Shown: positions 27,374 through 37,543, counted from the stretch's first letter. The stretch is 51,933 bases of DNA from an uncultured Ignavibacteriales bacterium (GCA_903929035.1 CAIYTF010000040.1:1-51933); one strand, 5' to 3'. Translations and numbers: made by a program. The notes: a model not told the origin generated them from the sequence alone.

Positions 27374-28345
27374 CTATTTTAATAAAATGGCTTTCTTCAC
27401 TAAGGAGCTGCTCGTTCCTTTTAATTCATAAAAATATATCCCTGCACTAAGATGTGATGCGTCAATGTTAATACGATAGTTACCGGGATTTTTATTTTCA
27501 TTAAACAATTCTATAATCTGACTTCCAAGTTGATTATACACGCGAAGAGAGTAATTTCCTTCTTTTTCTATCGAGTAACTTATAACAGTTGATGGATTAA
27601 ACGGATTTGGATAATTTTGTTCCATAGAAAAAAAGGATGGTAAAAGAGAAGTCTCTTTATCCGAAATAGTTAATATTTCGGTTACAAAATTCCATATTTC
27701 CGACCATCTGCTTTGTCCATAATTGTTAATAGATTGTACTCGCCAATAATATTGTTGGTTATTCCGGAGATTACTTATTACTTTGTTAGGTAACTTTAAC
27801 AATGAATCATCAAGCAGTATTGTTCTAAATGCGGAATCAGCCGATACCTGAAGTCTGTAAAAATTCGGATTATATACAGAATTCCATTCAAGTTTTATTG
27901 GCAAAATTTGATCGAGTGAATTATTTGAAGGGGAAATCAGCAGCGGTTCAGTATAATAAAATAATGAGGTATTAAAAATAATAGGAGGATTTGGCAGCAA
28001 ATTTCCGTCAAAAATGGGCGGATCACCGAATGTATTCGCGATAATGGCGGAATCCGATATAACAATTTGAAAAAACACGCTGTCACCTTTTACAAGGGTA
28101 TCGCTGAGTAACGCCATAACAGCATAATCACCGGTTGTATTTTTATAAATAGCTTTCCGAATAATAGACTTGTTTTTTTTTAGTAAATTAATGACCGTTC
28201 CTGCAGGCGGAGGGAATCCGTCAATAGATACTTTACCTTTAAAAATGCATTCATAATCCTGTGCAAATACAGCAGGGTTAAGAAAAAGGAACCAATTAAG
28301 CATAAAAACAAAAGTAAATTTGTTTATTTTATTTAATGTAATCAT
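27374..28345 (-). CDS. Secreted protein with fibronectin III-like domain and type IX sorting signal
   Basis: A 323-residue secreted protein of unknown function. It has a signal peptide ending in PAVFAQ, an N-terminal region of about 120 residues without a recognised fold, and a fibronectin type III-like module (about 145-245, with LPIKLEWNSVYNPNFYRLQV and YYWRVQSINNYGQSRWSEIW). It ends in a type A C-terminal sorting domain, beginning MEQNYPNPFNPSTVISYSI and closing with LSAGIYFYELKGTSSSLVKK. Type IX secretion substrates of the FCB group end this way. It lies 69 bases downstream of another cargo gene, separated by a hairpin only about 20 bases before its start. Confidence 0.85.
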   Translation of the reverse strand: MITLNKINKFTFVFMLNWFLFLNPAVFAQDYECIFKGKVSIDGFPPPAGTVINLLKKNKSIIRKAIYKNTTGDYAVMALLSDTLVKGDSVFFQIVISDSAIIANTFGDPPIFDGNLLPNPPIIFNTSLFYYTEPLLISPSNNSLDQILPIKLEWNSVYNPNFYRLQVSADSAFRTILLDDSLLKLPNKVISNLRNNQQYYWRVQSINNYGQSRWSEIWNFVTEILTISDKETSLLPSFFSMEQNYPNPFNPSTVISYSIEKEGNYSLRVYNQLGSQIIELFNENKNPGNYRINIDASHLSAGIYFYELKGTSSSLVKKAILLK

Positions 28346-28414: not shown

Positions 28415-30196
28415 TTACTTTAATAACATTAATTTTTGCATTTGCGTATGTCCGCTATATGTAAAGCGGGCAAAGTAAACACCGGATGTAACAATATTAT
28501 TTATGTCGTTGGTTCCATTCCACATAATGCTATGCTGACCGGGAGCAACTTCTGAATTTACTAATGTTTTAATTAATTCACCATTCATATTAAAAATAGA
28601 AAGTGTTACCTGAGATTTTTCAGGAACATCAAATTTTAATGTTGTTGATGGATTAAACGGATTCGGATAGCTTGAATGCAGTTTAAATGATATAGGAGTG
28701 TTACCTTTAATATCTTCTACTGCAGTCGCCTTATCAAGCTCTTGAAGTACCGGTGTATCTCCAAAACCAGTATAAATTAGCTGGTAGTTGACAAATGTGC
28801 CATTCAATTTAAGCCTAATAGTTTCACCAACTGCCGCGCCTTCTTTCAACGAGGTCTCAGGGTTATCTCCTTTTATTTCTAAAGCAACTATACCATTTGC
28901 CGCAAATACTGCTTTACCATAAACAACACCAGATGTACTGACTGCCTGAAGCTCAGAACCAACCGGAATTAAATTATTTTGGTTCTTAACCAAAGTACCA
29001 TAAGCCACCATCATTTGAGGAAGAGATGCTTGACGAAGTGCTGATGCCTTTTTAATGTTTTTGCTTATATGTGAAACTTTATTAGCTCCATATCCATAAT
29101 TATAAGACTCCGGATAACTTAAAGCAGCTGGATCGATGACATCTATAAAATAACCTTGACCCGGTAGCAAAACTTCAATAGCTTCTGAAAAGTATTCAGA
29201 ACCTTGAGCCCCTGTTCCCGCGTTAATATATTCAAATATAGAATTATAATTTTCAACTAAACTCTGAAGTGCCCATTGTGTTCCATCTTGATAATCGGGT
29301 AGATAACTTATAAGATTATAACCGCTTTGTAAGTTAATAGGTGCTGTCATCTCTACAGGTTTGCCGTAAACTGATAAAACATCTGGTTCTGAACCTTTCT
29401 TCAATCTGACAAAATATCCTTTTTCAAAGGCTGTTAATTGAAACGGGTTATAAGAGCCTAGTTCCGGAATATAATATGAAAAGGATGGAGTAGATTCACC
29501 GTCATTAACATAGTCTAATATTATTTGCACCTTGCCGGTATTAATAAGATCGCCGAAAACATCACTAACGTTATCATAATCATTATTATTAAAATTAGGT
29601 TTAACATTCCAAGAAACGGCATTATATCCCTGTACAACAGGAATATCAACTGTTCTATCATAGGCTGTATGAATAGTAATTTTCTTTACTGAAGGGACAG
29701 AAGGGAAAGAAGTTGTGGATTTATCATCAAAGGTTACAATTGAAGGATTACGGCTATAACGTGTTGAAGCCACATTCTCATTCCTATCCATAACTGTAAA
29801 ATCTAATTCATCACCATCCTGTAACCCATTTATTGTACTCAAGCTCAAAGCGAAATTTATTGTATCACCATTTGAATAACCATCACCATAGGTTGAAAGT
29901 GGTAATATGTTAGTATATCCAACAGAGCTGCCGGATTGTTTATTATATATGAAAAGAGTAAAATCAGGAGTAGCAATAAAATTATCGACAGTGACAATAC
30001 CATATAAAATTGTTTGACCTCCATTCTGCGGACTTAATTTATTGAGGGTGTTAAAATTGAGTTGTCCCTTTTTAAGGGAACTGTTGACAAAAGCCTTTGT
30101 TGTTACTTTTCCTTGGGCATTCGTAAACGAATTAAAGAAAGTGAACACGAGAACAAGGTAAGATCGTAATAACTCTAAAACGAAACATAAGAGCAC
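28415..30196 (-). CDS. Secreted protein with type IX C-terminal sorting domain
   Basis: A 593-residue secreted protein without a recognised catalytic domain. A hydrophobic N-terminus (SYLVLVFTFFNSFTNAQG) serves as signal peptide. The middle is beta-rich and low in charge, with two related segments (VVQGYNAVSWNVKPNFNN and LQSGYNLISYLPDYQDGTQW) resembling extracellular repeat modules. The C-terminus is a type A sorting domain: HSSYPNPFNPSTTLKFDVPE followed by the FlgD-like SIFNMNGELIKTLVNSEV and HTQMQKLMLLK. It is divergent from the TPR operon and ends in a strong terminator. Probably a cell-surface or released protein. Confidence 0.85.
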   Translation of the reverse strand: MLLCFVLELLRSYLVLVFTFFNSFTNAQGKVTTKAFVNSSLKKGQLNFNTLNKLSPQNGGQTILYGIVTVDNFIATPDFTLFIYNKQSGSSVGYTNILPLSTYGDGYSNGDTINFALSLSTINGLQDGDELDFTVMDRNENVASTRYSRNPSIVTFDDKSTTSFPSVPSVKKITIHTAYDRTVDIPVVQGYNAVSWNVKPNFNNNDYDNVSDVFGDLINTGKVQIILDYVNDGESTPSFSYYIPELGSYNPFQLTAFEKGYFVRLKKGSEPDVLSVYGKPVEMTAPINLQSGYNLISYLPDYQDGTQWALQSLVENYNSIFEYINAGTGAQGSEYFSEAIEVLLPGQGYFIDVIDPAALSYPESYNYGYGANKVSHISKNIKKASALRQASLPQMMVAYGTLVKNQNNLIPVGSELQAVSTSGVVYGKAVFAANGIVALEIKGDNPETSLKEGAAVGETIRLKLNGTFVNYQLIYTGFGDTPVLQELDKATAVEDIKGNTPISFKLHSSYPNPFNPSTTLKFDVPEKSQVTLSIFNMNGELIKTLVNSEVAPGQHSIMWNGTNDINNIVTSGVYFARFTYSGHTQMQKLMLLK

Positions 30197-30417: not shown

Positions 30418-33381
30418 ATGAAGTTATTTATATATATAGTTATTCTCCTCAGTTTCGCGGCAATTTTGCGGGCGCAGGCACCTGAAGTACTGTACGGGGA
30501 TGCTATGAACAGTTTCGCCCGCGGGGCTTATTCTTCCGCTTTGCAGAAATTTGAAGAATATATAGCAAATCCGGATGTTCAAGTTCCGCAGCTGCCGGCA
30601 GCGCATTTTTACGCGGCTGAATGCTTGAATGAAATGGGCGACTTTAGCGGAGCAGTATTTGAATATGAAAAAGTGGCAGGCTTTTACCGCCTGTCTAATT
30701 TTAGAGAAGAAGCATTATATAAACTTGGACTCGCCTATAATATTAATAAAGACTATACCCGCGGCAAGGAAAGACTTTTGCAGCTTATCACTGATTATCC
30801 GCGGAGTGAATTATTAGCCCAAGCACAATACTGGGTTGCAGAGAATCTTCTTGCCGAGAGTATTTATGACGAAGCTATTGCTTTTTATCAGCTTTCTGCT
30901 AATTCAAAAAAGAATAACCCGTTTCAGAGTACTTCAATATATAAAATAGCCGGTATCTACGAAATTTTGGGACAGTATCAAAAAGCTATTGACACTTATG
31001 ATTCATTGCTGACCTATTTCAGAAATACTCCTTTATCTGTTCCGGCTCAGTATCGAATAGGGTATAGTTATTTTAAGCTGCATCTATTTGAGAATGCTGT
31101 TATCGAAATATCAAACCCTGCACTTAATGAACTTCCCCGCGAAAAACAGCTTGAAGCGTCCTATATTCTCGGGGCTTCTTTTTTCAGCAGCGCGGATTAT
31201 ATTCAAGCAGACTCGATATTTTCTTCATTGCTGAAAGAATCACTTAACGATGAAACAAAAAGGCAAATTCTCTATTCATTAGCTTGGACAAGATTCCAAA
31301 GAAAAATATTCCCTGATGCTCAAAAGATGTTCAATACTTTGGCGCAAGGTTCCGATTCCCTTTCCCGTATTTCGCTTTATTGGAAAGGCGAAGCTCAACG
31401 ATATCAAGGCAGGCAAAACGAAGCACTGAAAACATTTGAAGAATATATCAAAAAATTCCCTGCAAGTATATTGACCCGTTCAGCCCAATACCAGATTGGC
31501 CTTATTTATTTTGAACAAAAGCAATATCAAAAAGCGCGTTCCTTTTTGTTAAATGCATCTTCTACCGGCGAAGGTGATTTGCGGGCAAGAATATTCACCA
31601 TATTAGGTGAACTCGAATTAACAAGGGAGAATATTCCAAGCGCGATTCAATACTTTAACTCAGCACTTGATTTGGATTATATTGCAGCTATATATGTGAA
31701 TAGAGCGCAATTTGGTATCGGTGTGGCTTACTATAAAAATGGCGACTTCACGAAAGCTGAAAAAGCATTGTCTAAACTTGAAAATACATCAGCAAATTTT
31801 GAACCGGAAAAAATAAACTTTATCATCGGGGAATGTTATTTTGCGCGAGAAAAATACTCGGATGCGCTCGCCAGATATAAAAAAGTTTCTTTGACAAATG
31901 AGGAGTTCGGTGCTTCCGGTATATATGCTTCAGCCTACTGTTATTATAATTTGCACGATTATGATAATGCAGCATATCTGTTTACGGATTTCATCAAGAA
32001 ATTTGTTTATGATAACAGAATAAATGATGCGCGTCTGCGGCTGGCGGATTCCTATCTGGCAACAAAGAAATATAGCCAGGCTGTAAATGAATATAAAGAT
32101 TTGACAAAAGCAGGCGCGAAGAACGCGGATTATGCTTTGTATCAATCCGGATTAGCGTTGTTCAAATCGGGAAAAACAGAGGATGCACTTGCCCAATTAA
32201 AAAGGCTTGGTGAAAAATATCCTAAGTCTCTATATGCAGATAATGGATTGTATTTACAGGGATGGATGAAATTTCAGGGCGGGAATCTTCAGGATGCAAT
32301 TGCGCGGTATCAGCAGCTTTTACTTGTATCGCCGCGTTCAAAATTAGTGCCGCAAGTTATGTATTCAATAGGCGACTGCTATTATAATGCAGGTAATTAT
32401 GATTCCGCTATTATTAATTATGAAAGAGTTGTTGATAATTTCCCAAATTCAAGCAGCGTGTATGATGCAATTAACGGGATACAACTTGCCTATTCCGCGA
32501 AAGGGGATGTGCAGGCTGCATCTGAAGTAATTGAAAAATACAGCCGGAATAAAGGATGGAACTATGCTGACCAGTTATATCTTAAAAAAGGCGAGCTTTT
32601 TTATAATCAGGGAAATTATGCCGAGGCAAGAGACAGCTATGAATCATTCTTGTCGATGTTTCCTAACAGTAAATTGCTGCCACAGGCACTTTATTGGATT
32701 GGTAAATGTTCGCAGCTATTAGGCGATTCTGAACGGGCTATGGAAAATTATCGAATAGTCTTTTACCGGCATACTAAAAGCGAGGAAGCAGAATCGGCAG
32801 TTATTGAATGGGGGAAAATGCTTTTGCAGCTTGAACGAATAGAAGAAGCTCTTGCTCTCTATGAGAACGCGCTTGATAAACTCAAGGGGTCAAATTCTAT
32901 ACCGGAGATTTTATATTGGAAAGGGATGGCTGCAAAGAAAAAAGGAGACAGCGCGACAGCATTTGACGCGTTTGATGAACTTGCAATTTATTATGAGAAC
33001 AATTTATTTGCAGATAAAGCCCGATTAGAATTGGGTATTATTGAATTAGATGCCAAACGTTTCCCGAATGCAGTAAAGTATTTTCAGCAATTAGCTTCAA
33101 AGAGGACGGATGATATCGGTGCTGCATCGCAATATTATTTGGGAGTAATAAACCAAATGCAGGATAAAATGCAAGATGCAATTACTCAATTTGTCAGGAC
33201 TCTAAACTCGTTTGCCAATTATGACGAATGGGTTACAAAATCGTATCTGCGATTAGGCGAATGTTATGAAAAACTCAAGGATACTAAAAAGGCTCGTGAA
33301 ATGTTCAAATTAGTTGTGGATAAACACAAGAATGACGAATACGGAAAGGAAGCCCAAACTAAATTGAGGAAATTGAGATGA
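30418..33381 (+). CDS. Large periplasmic/outer-membrane TPR-repeat protein
   Basis: A 987-residue protein made almost entirely of tetratricopeptide repeats behind a signal peptide (FIYIVILLSFAAILRAQ). Repeat units recur about every 34-37 residues, e.g. ALYKLGLAYNINKDYTRGKE, AQYQIGLIYFEQKQYQKARS, VMYSIGDCYYNAGNYDSAI and ALYWIGKCSQLLGDSERAME. The YbgF/BamD-like pattern (Y-x-x-A-x-x-x-Y-x-x-x-x-x-x-x-P) suggests a scaffold in the envelope. It is the first gene of a four-gene operon and overlaps the next gene by 4 bases. The partner proteins (barrel, SPOR protein, TonB-like protein) point to an envelope-spanning assembly; the precise role is unknown. Confidence 0.88.
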   Translation: MKLFIYIVILLSFAAILRAQAPEVLYGDAMNSFARGAYSSALQKFEEYIANPDVQVPQLPAAHFYAAECLNEMGDFSGAVFEYEKVAGFYRLSNFREEALYKLGLAYNINKDYTRGKERLLQLITDYPRSELLAQAQYWVAENLLAESIYDEAIAFYQLSANSKKNNPFQSTSIYKIAGIYEILGQYQKAIDTYDSLLTYFRNTPLSVPAQYRIGYSYFKLHLFENAVIEISNPALNELPREKQLEASYILGASFFSSADYIQADSIFSSLLKESLNDETKRQILYSLAWTRFQRKIFPDAQKMFNTLAQGSDSLSRISLYWKGEAQRYQGRQNEALKTFEEYIKKFPASILTRSAQYQIGLIYFEQKQYQKARSFLLNASSTGEGDLRARIFTILGELELTRENIPSAIQYFNSALDLDYIAAIYVNRAQFGIGVAYYKNGDFTKAEKALSKLENTSANFEPEKINFIIGECYFAREKYSDALARYKKVSLTNEEFGASGIYASAYCYYNLHDYDNAAYLFTDFIKKFVYDNRINDARLRLADSYLATKKYSQAVNEYKDLTKAGAKNADYALYQSGLALFKSGKTEDALAQLKRLGEKYPKSLYADNGLYLQGWMKFQGGNLQDAIARYQQLLLVSPRSKLVPQVMYSIGDCYYNAGNYDSAIINYERVVDNFPNSSSVYDAINGIQLAYSAKGDVQAASEVIEKYSRNKGWNYADQLYLKKGELFYNQGNYAEARDSYESFLSMFPNSKLLPQALYWIGKCSQLLGDSERAMENYRIVFYRHTKSEEAESAVIEWGKMLLQLERIEEALALYENALDKLKGSNSIPEILYWKGMAAKKKGDSATAFDAFDELAIYYENNLFADKARLELGIIELDAKRFPNAVKYFQQLASKRTDDIGAASQYYLGVINQMQDKMQDAITQFVRTLNSFANYDEWVTKSYLRLGECYEKLKDTKKAREMFKLVVDKHKNDEYGKEAQTKLRKLR

Positions 33382-34964
33382 TGTTTAGATTATTTCTTTT
33401 TGCAGTCGTGAGCGCGGTTAGTCTGTTCGCGCAGGAAACATCGAAAAACAAAGGTGTTGATTTACCCGTGTTTGTAATAACCGGCAAGGAAAACATAGAG
33501 TTAGGAACAGCGGAGAAATTGCCGCCGCCGCCCCTTCGCGTTATCACCGAAGAGTTTATTAAACCTTCGTATGACCCTGATTTTCTGGATGCGATGATTG
33601 TCTCGAATCCGTTTGAAAACAAATTGATTCCTAAAGAAATACCGCTTCGGTATAAAAGTAAATTGAGCGGCAGTTTAGGACTTATCACTCTGCCAAGCAT
33701 TGATTACTCTACTCTCGCTAATTTTTCAGAGGCAACAATTTCCGCGGGATTGAGTGCCGACTATCATAGACCTTACGTTTCTTACGCGGATAACTATTCT
33801 ATCTCACCTTTTTTTGACGCGGCTTACAAGGTAATTCAACCCGGAACATTTTTTGACAAGCAAAAACTTAATTTTTTCGGTAAATATAATTTTCAAAGTT
33901 ATAATTTTATTACAGATACTTCCGGAATTAAAAGAGATATTAGCCGATTTGATATAGGACTTCGTGCTGCAAACAGTGACGGCGAGTTCTGGAAATACAA
34001 AACCGAGATAAAAACCCAGGCTATTTCACTGGTAAACGAAAACATCAAGGAATCACGAACTTTTTTGTCCGGCGCGCTTGGTTTTTCAGGAAGTAATTTT
34101 GAAATGGCTCCAAACGCGATGATAAGTTTTAATTCAGAATCAAATCTTGACGGGATCAATCACTCCGCGGCTCTTATAGAGGCAAATACACCGGTAAAAT
34201 TAACATTATCTGATGTTGTCTCGCTTTCAGCCTCATTTCGGGGGATAGTTTATGATTCGATTAAATCATTTAAACCTAACTTTGGAGCTGTTTTGAAAAT
34301 ATCATCATTTCTTGCCATATCAGCTTCTTTTAACCCGGGTTATGAAGTCTTTGATTTGAGGAGAGAACTTGAAAATAACAGGTATGCAATTGCTTTTACA
34401 TATCCTTTGTATATTTATTCGATTGACAACCGATTTAATTACAGTATGACGGTTGAGTCAGCAAAAATATTTGATTTAACTTTTGGATTCAGTACGGCAA
34501 AGTCTGATAATTATCCTTATTTTAAAGATGCCGGAGCAGGAAAATATAAGATGCAATTAGTTAAAACCTCAATCTATAAACTTTCGGCAGACTTGCGGAT
34601 ACATCCTTCATCCTATGGATATTATATAGCAAATGTGACATATAACGGAATTAAAAATGTATTAGGGCAATATTTGCCAAATGTTTCACCTATTAATATT
34701 TATGCTGTTTATGGATATACTTTAGAAAAAGGTGTAGTAATTAAAACCGGAGCGAAGTTTCTAAGCAGAAGATACGCGGATATACAGAATAATGTTCATA
34801 TCCCTTATTACCTTTCCATATTTGGAGAGCTTGGATATTCATTTTCGCGGGAATTTTTATTAAGTGTAAAAATTGATAACTTGCTTAATAAAGAAAACTA
34901 TATTTTGAAAGGATATAAAGAACCTCGTTTAAATCTTGAATTAGGAATAGAATTCCAATGGTAA
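33378..34964 (+). CDS. Outer-membrane beta-barrel protein related to TonB-dependent receptors, no plug
   Basis: A 528-residue protein with a signal peptide (FRLFLFAVVSAVSLFAQ), a proline-rich N-terminal stretch (VDLPVFVITGKENIELGTA, then KLPPPPLRVI) and a beta-barrel of alternating hydrophobic strands ending NLELGIEFQW, an aromatic C-terminal beta signal. The closing section, VKIDNLLNKENYILKGY, looks like the last strands of TonB-dependent receptors, but no plug domain is visible and the protein is short. It overlaps the TPR gene (ATGATG junction) and precedes the SPOR gene by 22 bases. A structural or substrate channel role in the operon's complex is inferred. Confidence 0.75.
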   Translation: MMFRLFLFAVVSAVSLFAQETSKNKGVDLPVFVITGKENIELGTAEKLPPPPLRVITEEFIKPSYDPDFLDAMIVSNPFENKLIPKEIPLRYKSKLSGSLGLITLPSIDYSTLANFSEATISAGLSADYHRPYVSYADNYSISPFFDAAYKVIQPGTFFDKQKLNFFGKYNFQSYNFITDTSGIKRDISRFDIGLRAANSDGEFWKYKTEIKTQAISLVNENIKESRTFLSGALGFSGSNFEMAPNAMISFNSESNLDGINHSAALIEANTPVKLTLSDVVSLSASFRGIVYDSIKSFKPNFGAVLKISSFLAISASFNPGYEVFDLRRELENNRYAIAFTYPLYIYSIDNRFNYSMTVESAKIFDLTFGFSTAKSDNYPYFKDAGAGKYKMQLVKTSIYKLSADLRIHPSSYGYYIANVTYNGIKNVLGQYLPNVSPINIYAVYGYTLEKGVVIKTGAKFLSRRYADIQNNVHIPYYLSIFGELGYSFSREFLLSVKIDNLLNKENYILKGYKEPRLNLELGIEFQW

Positions 34965-34986
34965 ACAGGAACCAAAATAATTAACT

Positions 34987-36855
34987 ATGTTATCAAGAAC
35001 TGAAATAATTAATCAGCTTGCAGAAAAAGCAGGTGTGCCATACCTCGAAGCAGCCCATTTTATGGAGATATTTTTATATAAACTCTCAGAACTGCTGGTT
35101 GAAGACGATACCTTTAAAATTGACAAGATAGGCAAATTCCAAATTTCATCTCCTCACGGCTCTGCAAGCCAAAGCAGCGCGAAAGGAAAGATATTTCTTT
35201 GCACTTTTGAAGGAGGACAAGGCAGCTGTACTTTTAGTGCCCCGGGTTCTTTGGCAAAAGGTACTAATGTTATTGATAGTTTTCTTTCGATTGGAATAAA
35301 CCGGAAGTTTATTCCTGTTAGAGGAGAGCAATATGTTCCCGACTCTCTGCCTTCGAATGCAAATGAAACGCGGAAACTATTGGAGCAAAAAGCGGCTTTA
35401 ATTTTGCAGCAAGGTTCGTTGATTCGCGGCAAGAATGAAAATTCATTTAATATTTTAACTGAAAGCAGTTCCCTTTCAACTGAATCATTTCTATCTTTTG
35501 CTGTTCCGAAAATAAATTTGGAAGAAGATACGGAAGCTGACCCGGAAGATACATCTTGGGAATTTGGCAGTGATTGGAAAAAAGAATATGAAGAAGACTT
35601 GCTGCTTGATTCTGATGCCGATGACATTTCCGATGAAGATTTTGAAGTAAGTATTAGCCGTGCATCTTCTTCAGCGCGCTGGGATTTTGGCGATGATGAA
35701 AAAAATGAAAGCCCTTCGGTAAGTAAGTCTCAACCTTTGGGAAGTAAAAGCGTCAAGGAACCAAAGGAATTTGATTTAGATAGTTTCGCGCCTGTCAAGT
35801 CTATGACGCGTGAATTAGAAATAGACCTTTCTGAACTTGAATCGGAACAGGAAGAGGAAGCCGACAGTGAAGAGGAGGATTATGAAGAAGAAAACTATGA
35901 AGATGATGTTCTTCCGGAGGATTTTGACGCGCTTTTCAAAAAGTCACTTGCCGAGAATGTTTTAAGTGTAGGTGCCGCGCATCATTTAGATGTTGAAGGA
36001 CAGTATTCGGATGAGGATGATTTGCAGGGCATCCATCTCCCTGAAGATGATGAGTCAATAGTTGATACTTCATTAGTCGGCAGTGCAGATGCAATTGATT
36101 TACGGGGCAGAAAACTTACAAGACATATCTCTCCTGAAGAGGATATGGAGTTTAATGGTATTAAGGATACTATTGAGAGAAACCCTGCAAAAAAACAGAA
36201 AAGTTATATTTTATATTATGTTCTCTCTTTTATTATTTTAACATTTGGCGGCACATTAGTATATACTAAGCTTTACGGCACACCAAAATGGGCAGAAGAT
36301 ATCGTGCGTGCAAAGGAGAAAGAAATTGTATTGAAGGCGTCAACCACTTCTATAGAACGTGATTACGCGTTCCCTGTTTCATATCCATACGAGCGTGTTG
36401 GTACTGTTATTAAGCCTAAGCCGGCGGCGGTTGATACTGCTGCAAACAAAGTTAAACAAGAGGTGCCTCCTGCTAAAGAAGAAAAAAAAGTTGAACCTCC
36501 TGTCGCCCAAAAAGAACAGCCTAAAGTTCAGCCTCCTCCTGCCAAGGAAGCAGCAAAGGCTAAAACTGAAAGCAAGGTGAAAGCTGAACCGGCGAAACTC
36601 CCTTCATCTGCAGCATATAAAGGAGCTTTTATTGAACCGGTTGCCGGTAAATTTGAAATTCAGGTGCTTTCATCTCCGGCGAGTGATGTTAGCGGTGCAG
36701 AAAAGGCAGCTGCCCGGCTGAGGTCTCTCGGCTACAATGCATTTGTAGTGCAAAAAGATATTCCAAACAGAGGTATTTATAATCGCGTGAGAGTGGGTCC
36801 TTTCGCTTCACGCCAGGAAGCTGAAAAAGCATTAACAAAGCTCAAGGGCGAATAA
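34987..36855 (+). CDS. HU-like domain protein with acidic linker, membrane helix and C-terminal SPOR domain
   Basis: A 622-residue bitopic protein. Residues 1-110 resemble the HU/CCDC81-like DNA-binding fold found in Bacteroidota SPOR proteins (RTEIINQLAEKAGVPYLEAA, TFKIDKIGKFQISS). Residues 175-400 form a long acidic linker with two similar motifs, WEFGSDW (W191) and WDFGDDE (W232). A single membrane helix follows at about 406-431 (ILYYVLSFIILTFGGTLVY), then a Pro/Lys/Glu-rich periplasmic stalk and a SPOR domain (about 554-622; GKFEIQVLSS, RVRVGPFASRQEAEKALTKL). SPOR domains bind denuded glycan at division sites. The HU-like part would be cytoplasmic, so the protein could link nucleoid and septum, although DNA binding by this subfamily is not established. 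Confidence 0.85.
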   Translation: MLSRTEIINQLAEKAGVPYLEAAHFMEIFLYKLSELLVEDDTFKIDKIGKFQISSPHGSASQSSAKGKIFLCTFEGGQGSCTFSAPGSLAKGTNVIDSFLSIGINRKFIPVRGEQYVPDSLPSNANETRKLLEQKAALILQQGSLIRGKNENSFNILTESSSLSTESFLSFAVPKINLEEDTEADPEDTSWEFGSDWKKEYEEDLLLDSDADDISDEDFEVSISRASSSARWDFGDDEKNESPSVSKSQPLGSKSVKEPKEFDLDSFAPVKSMTRELEIDLSELESEQEEEADSEEEDYEEENYEDDVLPEDFDALFKKSLAENVLSVGAAHHLDVEGQYSDEDDLQGIHLPEDDESIVDTSLVGSADAIDLRGRKLTRHISPEEDMEFNGIKDTIERNPAKKQKSYILYYVLSFIILTFGGTLVYTKLYGTPKWAEDIVRAKEKEIVLKASTTSIERDYAFPVSYPYERVGTVIKPKPAAVDTAANKVKQEVPPAKEEKKVEPPVAQKEQPKVQPPPAKEAAKAKTESKVKAEPAKLPSSAAYKGAFIEPVAGKFEIQVLSSPASDVSGAEKAAARLRSLGYNAFVVQKDIPNRGIYNRVRVGPFASRQEAEKALTKLKGE

Positions 36856-36862
36856 TAATTAG

Positions 36863-37543
36863 ATGAGTTCTTATCGCTCTGCATCAGCGGCGTTTTCATT
36901 TATTACACACGGTCTAATTATTATCCTTTTCCTGCTTGTAAAGACTCCTGCATTTATTGAACAGCCGGAAGAACCAATTGAAGTTGGGTTTGGTCCTGGT
37001 TTTGGCAGCGGCGGAGGCGGTGCCGGTTCAGAAATAAACCCGGGTACTTTTTCCGAACAGGAAGCTGTTTCCGCTCAAGATAAGAGTGATGATATTAAAG
37101 ATACAAAATCACAAACAGCCAATGACGAAGCTATCAAGACAGTTTCAAAATCAGATAAGAAAAGTAATAATTCAACATCCGCGTCCGGTGAAACAGAAAA
37201 GGCTTCCGGTTTGGGGACAGGCAAAGGTACTGCAATTGGTCCGGGTGAAGGTGATGGGCTGGGATTTAGTATCGACTGGGGCGGCGGCGGCAAAAGAAAA
37301 ATTCTCTACTATCCGCTCCCGGGCTATCCTAAAGGTTCTAATAAACAATTAGATGTAAAAATCCGTTTTTCAATTCTGCCTGACGGAACTGTCGGTGCGC
37401 GTTCACTGCTGACTAAAGGCGATACTATGCTTGAGAATGCTGCTTTGAATGCAATTCAATTATGGCGTTTTGAACAGCTTGCAGCCAAGGGGCAATCGTT
37501 TTTACAATCCGCGGTAATAGTGTTTCAGTTTAGGCTGCGATAA
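36863..37543 (+). CDS. TonB-family energy-transducer protein
   Basis: A 226-residue protein with a short cytoplasmic N-terminus, one membrane helix (AFSFITHGLIIILFLLVKTP), a Gly-rich and then charged periplasmic linker (FGPGFGSGGGGAGSE, SKSDKKSNNSTSASGE), and a TonB C-terminal domain at about 150-226 (KQLDVKIRFSILPDGTVGA, LENAALNAIQLWRFEQL). TonB-family proteins pass proton-motive energy to outer-membrane partners, here plausibly the barrel encoded two genes upstream. ExbB/ExbD partners are not in the window. It starts seven bases after the SPOR gene and closes the operon. Confidence 0.87.
   Translation: MSSYRSASAAFSFITHGLIIILFLLVKTPAFIEQPEEPIEVGFGPGFGSGGGGAGSEINPGTFSEQEAVSAQDKSDDIKDTKSQTANDEAIKTVSKSDKKSNNSTSASGETEKASGLGTGKGTAIGPGEGDGLGFSIDWGGGGKRKILYYPLPGYPKGSNKQLDVKIRFSILPDGTVGARSLLTKGDTMLENAALNAIQLWRFEQLAAKGQSFLQSAVIVFQFRLR

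Follow-up and report, generated by a model that had tools for sequence, protein, structure and literature searches.

The Tol-Pal system (TolQ-TolR-TolA-TolB-Pal-CpoB) is a main outer membrane constriction and integrity system in many diderm bacteria. For the Bacteroidetes, which include major gut, oral, and marine bacteria, a 2025 study reports no identifiable tol-pal locus and proposes PorE as the outer membrane-peptidoglycan tether (PMC12204202). In Cytophaga hutchinsonii, deletion of the Pal-like CHU_0125 harms outer membrane integrity (PMC5891637).

Here, we describe an operon found in a 51,933-nucleotide stretch of DNA from an uncultured Ignavibacteriales bacterium (referred to as the window) and conserved through much of the phylum Bacteroidota. 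With Tol-Pal it shares TolQ/TolR-type motor genes (in most relatives; they are absent from the window locus), a transducer with a single transmembrane segment (TM), a motor-contact histidine, and a TolA/TonB-type C-terminal domain, a CpoB-like tetratricopeptide repeat (TPR) protein, and an address next to a DUF92 gene, as in Chlorobiaceae. Unlike Tol-Pal, it lacks both a TolB propeller and Pal, encodes an HU-SPOR protein and a 22-strand barrel without a plug, and has a TPR protein almost four times as long. TonB systems with their transporters (e.g., BtuB) likewise combine ExbB-ExbD-TonB with a 22-strand barrel and an N-terminal TonB box, which the operon barrel matches with a TonB box-like motif; unlike them, the operon pairs a plugless barrel with fixed TPR and SPOR partners and carries no substrate genes. 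PorE/CHU_0125 has also been proposed, in the same phylum, to fill the Tol-Pal gap (PMC5891637 and PMC12204202), and it is, unlike the operon, a single OmpA-type multidomain lipoprotein. Full-length CHU_0125-type matches were patchy, and such a protein could be a complementary Pal-like part.

The operon is a specific candidate for the missing Tol-Pal job and could fill a known gap in Bacteroidota division and envelope cohesion. No paper on the TPR-barrel gene set was found in a literature search that left out preprints and many journals, nor do the available sections of the 2025 Bacteroidetes study mention it (PMC12204202). We provisionally regard the operon as new to the literature.

Gene content of the operon in the window

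An earlier note on this DNA had described a four-gene envelope operon at positions 30418 to 37543, on one strand, with overlaps or gaps of at most 22 bases. The reading frames and junctions were confirmed (Table 1): the TPR and barrel genes overlap by 4 bases (ATGA), 22 bases separate the barrel and HU-SPOR genes, and 7 bases separate the HU-SPOR gene from tonB. The operon is isolated, since the genes up- and downstream lie on the opposite strand. Domain searches agreed with the TPR, barrel, HU-SPOR, and TonB-like content, and a confident model backed the barrel. The four genes do belong to one conserved unit, but the window copy proved to be a reduced version of an operon of six genes, lacking those for the motor. 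This reduction, the motor genes themselves, the plugless transporter-type barrel, and the TonB box-like motif are additions to the earlier note. Two genes upstream, on the opposite strand (27374 to 28345 and 28415 to 30196), each code for a secreted protein bearing a type IX secretion sorting domain (PF18962).

Table 1. Features of the operon in the window
Feature	Position	Strand	Description
TPR scaffold protein	30418..33381	+	987 aa; signal peptide; tandem TPRs end to end (CpoB/BamD-like repeats)
Outer membrane barrel protein	33378..34964	+	528 aa; signal peptide, disordered N terminus, plugless 22-strand TonB-dependent-transporter-type barrel (model)
TonB box-like motif DLPVFVITG	33459..33485	+	Barrel protein residues 28-36
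HU-SPOR protein	34987..36855	+	622 aa; degenerate HU-like N terminus, long acidic linker, TM, Pro/Lys linker, C-terminal SPOR
TonB/TolA-type transducer	36863..37543	+	226 aa; N-terminal TM with histidine (FITHGL), C-terminal TonB_C
Site lacking exbB/tolQ and exbD/tolR relative to the six-gene operon	36856..36862	.	7-base gap only

Conservation of gene order across the phylum

The ancestral order, TPR (∼1,000 aa)-barrel-HU/SPOR-ExbB/TolQ-ExbD/TolR-TonB, is conserved in most families of the phylum (∼80 loci). A search with the barrel protein matched 55 of the 149 genomes of the window's class. Regions around 40 of these matches, together with 20 loci that came for the most part from the phylum's other families, were examined with six-frame profile searches as a guard against gene-calling errors. 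Among the 61 loci in which the barrel was confident, none had a permuted order, with the exception of L141, which has a TonB gene upstream. Of these 61, 20 retain the exact full six-gene order, and in 56 the TPR gene adjoins the barrel gene. Twenty further regions were found through the TPR protein. The barrel gene is immediately downstream in 15 of them, and ExbB and ExbD continue the order in 11. The adjacency of TPR and barrel genes, in 56/61 loci and 15/20 further regions with the order unpermuted, is not due to chance.

The TPR orthologue was single copy and full length in 33 of 44 chosen phylum genomes. A barrel profile tally of 376 of 393 phylum genomes was discounted in favor of TPR adjacency, because ordinary TonB-dependent transporters can cross-match that profile. 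The earlier note had proposed that an unconserved gene order and unrelated phylogenetic profiles would refute its reading; across the phylum loci examined, gene order was conserved and the profiles matched. The operon is a genuine, ancient, and conserved trans-envelope unit. In part of the phylum it continues into a folC-like gene of the Mur ligase family (L129:13542-14846 and L130:4525-5802), which in L129 carries Pfam Mur_ligase_M and Mur_ligase_C.

Exclusion of Tol-Pal and a shared genomic address

Of 393 phylum genomes, 64 have TolB (TIGR02800, E ≤ 1e-60), each of them a member of family f33, which we identified as Chlorobiaceae by its FMO protein. TIGR02800 was used because PF04052 was too insensitive and missed most Chlorobiaceae copies. 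The best TIGR02800 match in the window genome reached 88 bits against a 343-bit cutoff, and none of the loci examined has a TolB propeller or Pal-like gene within the conserved operon order. Conversely, neither the TPR protein nor a confident barrel was found in Chlorobiaceae, in which barrel matches were weak only; five of five inspected genomes carry a canonical tolQ-tolR-tolA-tolB-pal-cpoB operon. In two of these five, simple gene calling overlooked one or two of the genes. Within the phylum, then, the TPR-barrel operon occurs only where Tol-Pal is missing, as the earlier note had suggested checking, and it and TolB are mutually exclusive. Neither TolB nor the operon is strictly required, since families f14, f28, f31, f46, f50, and f58, as well as genome G148, have neither. 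Operon-less G148 does encode a 1,049-aa TPR protein, ExbB, an ExbD-like protein, and a 421-aa TonB-like protein together (L092:2429-8203, contig C138).

In 14 loci from the window's class, the gene immediately upstream of the TPR gene encodes a DUF92 membrane protein; in all five Chlorobiaceae, a gene ∼35% identical to these copies occupies the position immediately upstream of tolQ. Because of this common neighbor, the operon and the Chlorobiaceae tol-pal genes share one location on the chromosome, pointing either to in-place replacement or to a shared ancestry of the two operons. The DUF92 genes (e.g., L040:5951-6769, L046:4781-6259, and L175:14854-16428) often encode a second membrane domain. 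The Chlorobiaceae loci also have an extra gene for a lipoprotein-like product of 168 to 209 aa directly upstream of cpoB (L177:8515-9030 and equivalents in L175, L176, L178, and L179).

The idea of a Tol-Pal analogue, raised in the earlier note, thus gains support from the exclusion of TolB, the shared address, and the TolQ/TolR-type motor genes of the ancestral operon; its role in the cell is a prediction. The explanation we favor, by a modest margin over its being wrong, is that the operon encodes a force machine, driven by protons and spanning the envelope, that does the job of Tol-Pal in Bacteroidota and acts on the outer membrane.

The barrel and its TonB box-like motif

The barrel protein of the window matched no Pfam family; its sole resemblance, a weak one at the C terminus, was to a TonB-dependent receptor. 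An AlphaFold2 (AF2) model built from a 40-sequence alignment (mean pLDDT, 84) has 22 strands across residues 94 to 527, the strand number of a TonB-dependent transporter, and residues 18 to 88 are disordered. Foldseek searches of the PDB placed BtuB first, followed by other TonB-dependent transporters (E = 7e-16; TM score, 0.67; 11% identity). A plug domain was absent from Pfam matches to the window barrel and from the model, in which the barrel starts from residue 94.

Conservation along the protein peaks within the disordered N terminus. Residues 26 to 37 average 3.0 bits of conservation compared with 1.6 for the barrel, despite their predicted disorder, and contain the motif [ED]LPxF[VI]ITG, which resembles the TonB box of BtuB and lies shortly after the signal peptide, as TonB boxes do. 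The motif was present in 34 of 34 loci with an operon tonB and lost in four of five loci without one (P = 6e-5), an association that rests on five tonB-less loci and counts species, so that events are not fully independent. Mapped on the TPR tree, the losses number at least three independent events. The motif threonine was found in 21/21 loci with motor genes and in 7/13 without.

A TonB-dependent transporter fold, a TonB box-like motif, and ExbBD/TonB in the same operon could all be accounted for by a dedicated transporter, importing or exporting one universal substrate or envelope component, with the TPR and SPOR proteins merely positioning it. We consider this unlikely, if the best of the alternatives: the barrel lacks the plug, which is the part that TonB pulls in transporters; a single unit is conserved phylum-wide with no substrate-specific neighbors; a SPOR protein and a 1,000-aa TPR protein are foreign to known transport loci; and the genes are kept in lineages without the motor. 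In the force machine that we favor, the predicted path of force, from a proton motor through TonB and a TonB box to a plugless barrel, has good support from the co-variation seen among these sequences.

The TPR scaffold protein

The window TPR protein scored 238 bits against TPR_6, 289 bits against TIGR02795 (YbgF) over 10 stretches, and 181 bits against BamD. The BamD (YfiO)-like repeats bring to mind an outer membrane assembly or lipid homeostasis factor, made of a BamD-like TPR protein and a barrel, to which TonB would be merely accessory. Consistent with such a factor, no part of the operon is better conserved than the TPR-barrel core, which stays together even without HU-SPOR, motor, or TonB. 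Yet the YbgF profile outscores BamD, both being repeat matches, and most lineages do have motor, SPOR, and TonB; we judge this explanation improbable, and more so than a transporter.

An outer membrane barrel beside a TPR protein is also the arrangement of polysaccharide exporters (BcsC, PgaA, and AlgK-AlgE), a very improbable identity for a conserved unit that has no glycosyltransferase or synthase, that includes a proton motor and SPOR, and whose barrel is of the 22-strand TonB-dependent-transporter type. Equally implausible is an accessory of type IX secretion or gliding, to which the sorting domains of two neighboring window genes and a subthreshold PorW/SprE match to the window TPR protein, itself a TPR match, might point: that system has its own GldLM motor, the neighbors in relatives are not parts of it, and the operon profile tracks the absence of Tol-Pal.

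The HU-SPOR protein

The third gene of the window encodes a protein with one predicted TM near residue 407 and a C-terminal SPOR domain (PF05036, 49.9 bits), the architecture of SPOR division proteins, which are inner membrane proteins with C-terminal SPOR. Its N terminus matched PF00216 over residues 3 to 55 (23.1 bits), covering positions 2 to 54 of 90. This is less than a complete HU domain, and it lacks the HU DNA-binding beta-arm motif. The only best PDB matches to a model of this part were HU/IHF proteins, at weak significance (E = 0.03).

Orthologues in L061 (64.5 bits) and L075 (72 bits) combine SPOR with a complete HU domain covering 90/90 positions, and on this ground HU ancestry is supported. 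In L135 and L136, which belong to other classes, the orthologous position is taken by an HU-CCDC81_bac_1/2-SPOR membrane protein (PF18174, PF18175, and PF05036). The window protein differs from that type in its degenerate HU-like half-domain, and many lineages keep TM-SPOR with no HU at all. The earlier note had placed an HU-like domain in the cytoplasm; its ancestry holds up on sequence grounds, but the window has only a degenerate version and many relatives have none, and DNA binding by the window copy is not supported. A literature search that extended neither to preprints nor to most subscription papers returned nothing on HU-CCDC81/SPOR proteins.

Motor genes and the TonB histidine

In most relatives, exbB/tolQ and exbD/tolR genes lie between the HU-SPOR gene and tonB, with scores of 123 bits for MotA_ExbB and 95 bits for ExbD. 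They are missing from the locus in the window, in its nearest relative (L036), and in some other lineages. In an ExbB tree, the operon sequences, which span the phylum, form one group distinct from both Ton-type ExbB and Chlorobi TolQ. A single nonoperon sequence on a long branch falls among them, its placement being unsure.

The window tonB product matched TonB_C (28.6 bits) and TIGR01352 (34 bits). In TolA and TonB, a TM histidine contacts the motor (PMC12204202). The operon TonB has this histidine in 21/21 loci with motor genes and in 4/13 without, the window being among the 4; since the losses amount to one large clade and one single case, P values for this contrast overstate independence. 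The histidine is not universal, as three TonBs outside the window's class lack it despite a motor in the locus.

A proposed mechanism

Taken together, these parts point to the following mechanism. A TolQR/ExbBD-type inner membrane motor would energize the operon TonB through the proton motive force, and TonB would span the periplasm and pull the N-terminal TonB box of the plugless 22-strand barrel. The barrel would then serve TonB as an outer membrane handle rather than import nutrients. The CpoB-like periplasmic TPR protein would act as a scaffold joining barrel, TonB, and peptidoglycan factors, while the inner membrane HU-SPOR protein may take the complex to septal, denuded peptidoglycan. 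There, the complex would pull in or stabilize the outer membrane during constriction. The operon encodes no Pal-like peptidoglycan anchor; the TPR protein, the SPOR protein, or an OmpA-type lipoprotein encoded elsewhere would have to take that part.

From the distribution, the shared address, and the parts, we put the chances that the operon performs the Tol-Pal role at about even or little better. Somewhat short of that stands the full proposal, which we offer tentatively: a phylum-wide force machine with a TonB-pulled plugless barrel as outer membrane handle and an HU-SPOR link to septal peptidoglycan (ancestrally, to the nucleoid), swapped with Tol-Pal in either direction at the same locus, would be the long-missing Bacteroidota equivalent of Tol-Pal. 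The operon would add a new kind of outer membrane partner, a plugless transporter barrel, to those known for ExbBD/TolQR motors. The loss of the motor, the TonB histidine, or the TonB box in some lineages provides natural experiments.

Motorless lineages and motors elsewhere in the genome

One clade (L051, L055, L057, L058, L064, L065, L068, and L069) has kept TPR-barrel-SPOR-TonB and lost both the motor genes and the TonB histidine. It seems as if the machine had there turned into a passive tether, force apparently not being needed. In the window, where the histidine is kept, TonB would probably be driven in trans by another ExbB/ExbD pair of the genome. Two further motors were found in it: contig C101 carries an ExbB-ExbD-ExbD-TonB set, and a dprA-linked ExbB lies at the end of contig C222.

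We considered whether the dprA-linked ExbB is the relocated operon motor and rejected this, because it belongs to a different lineage and is present even in relatives whose operon still has its own ExbB. The set to which it belongs is seen whole in a close relative, as dprA-exbB-exbD-tonB with a TolQ-like ExbB (L085:5110-8173, contig C44 of G132); the window genome copy (L082:1-1609) is the same set, incomplete at the contig end. ExbBs matching the dprA-linked type were also found in genomes G464, G419, and G039.
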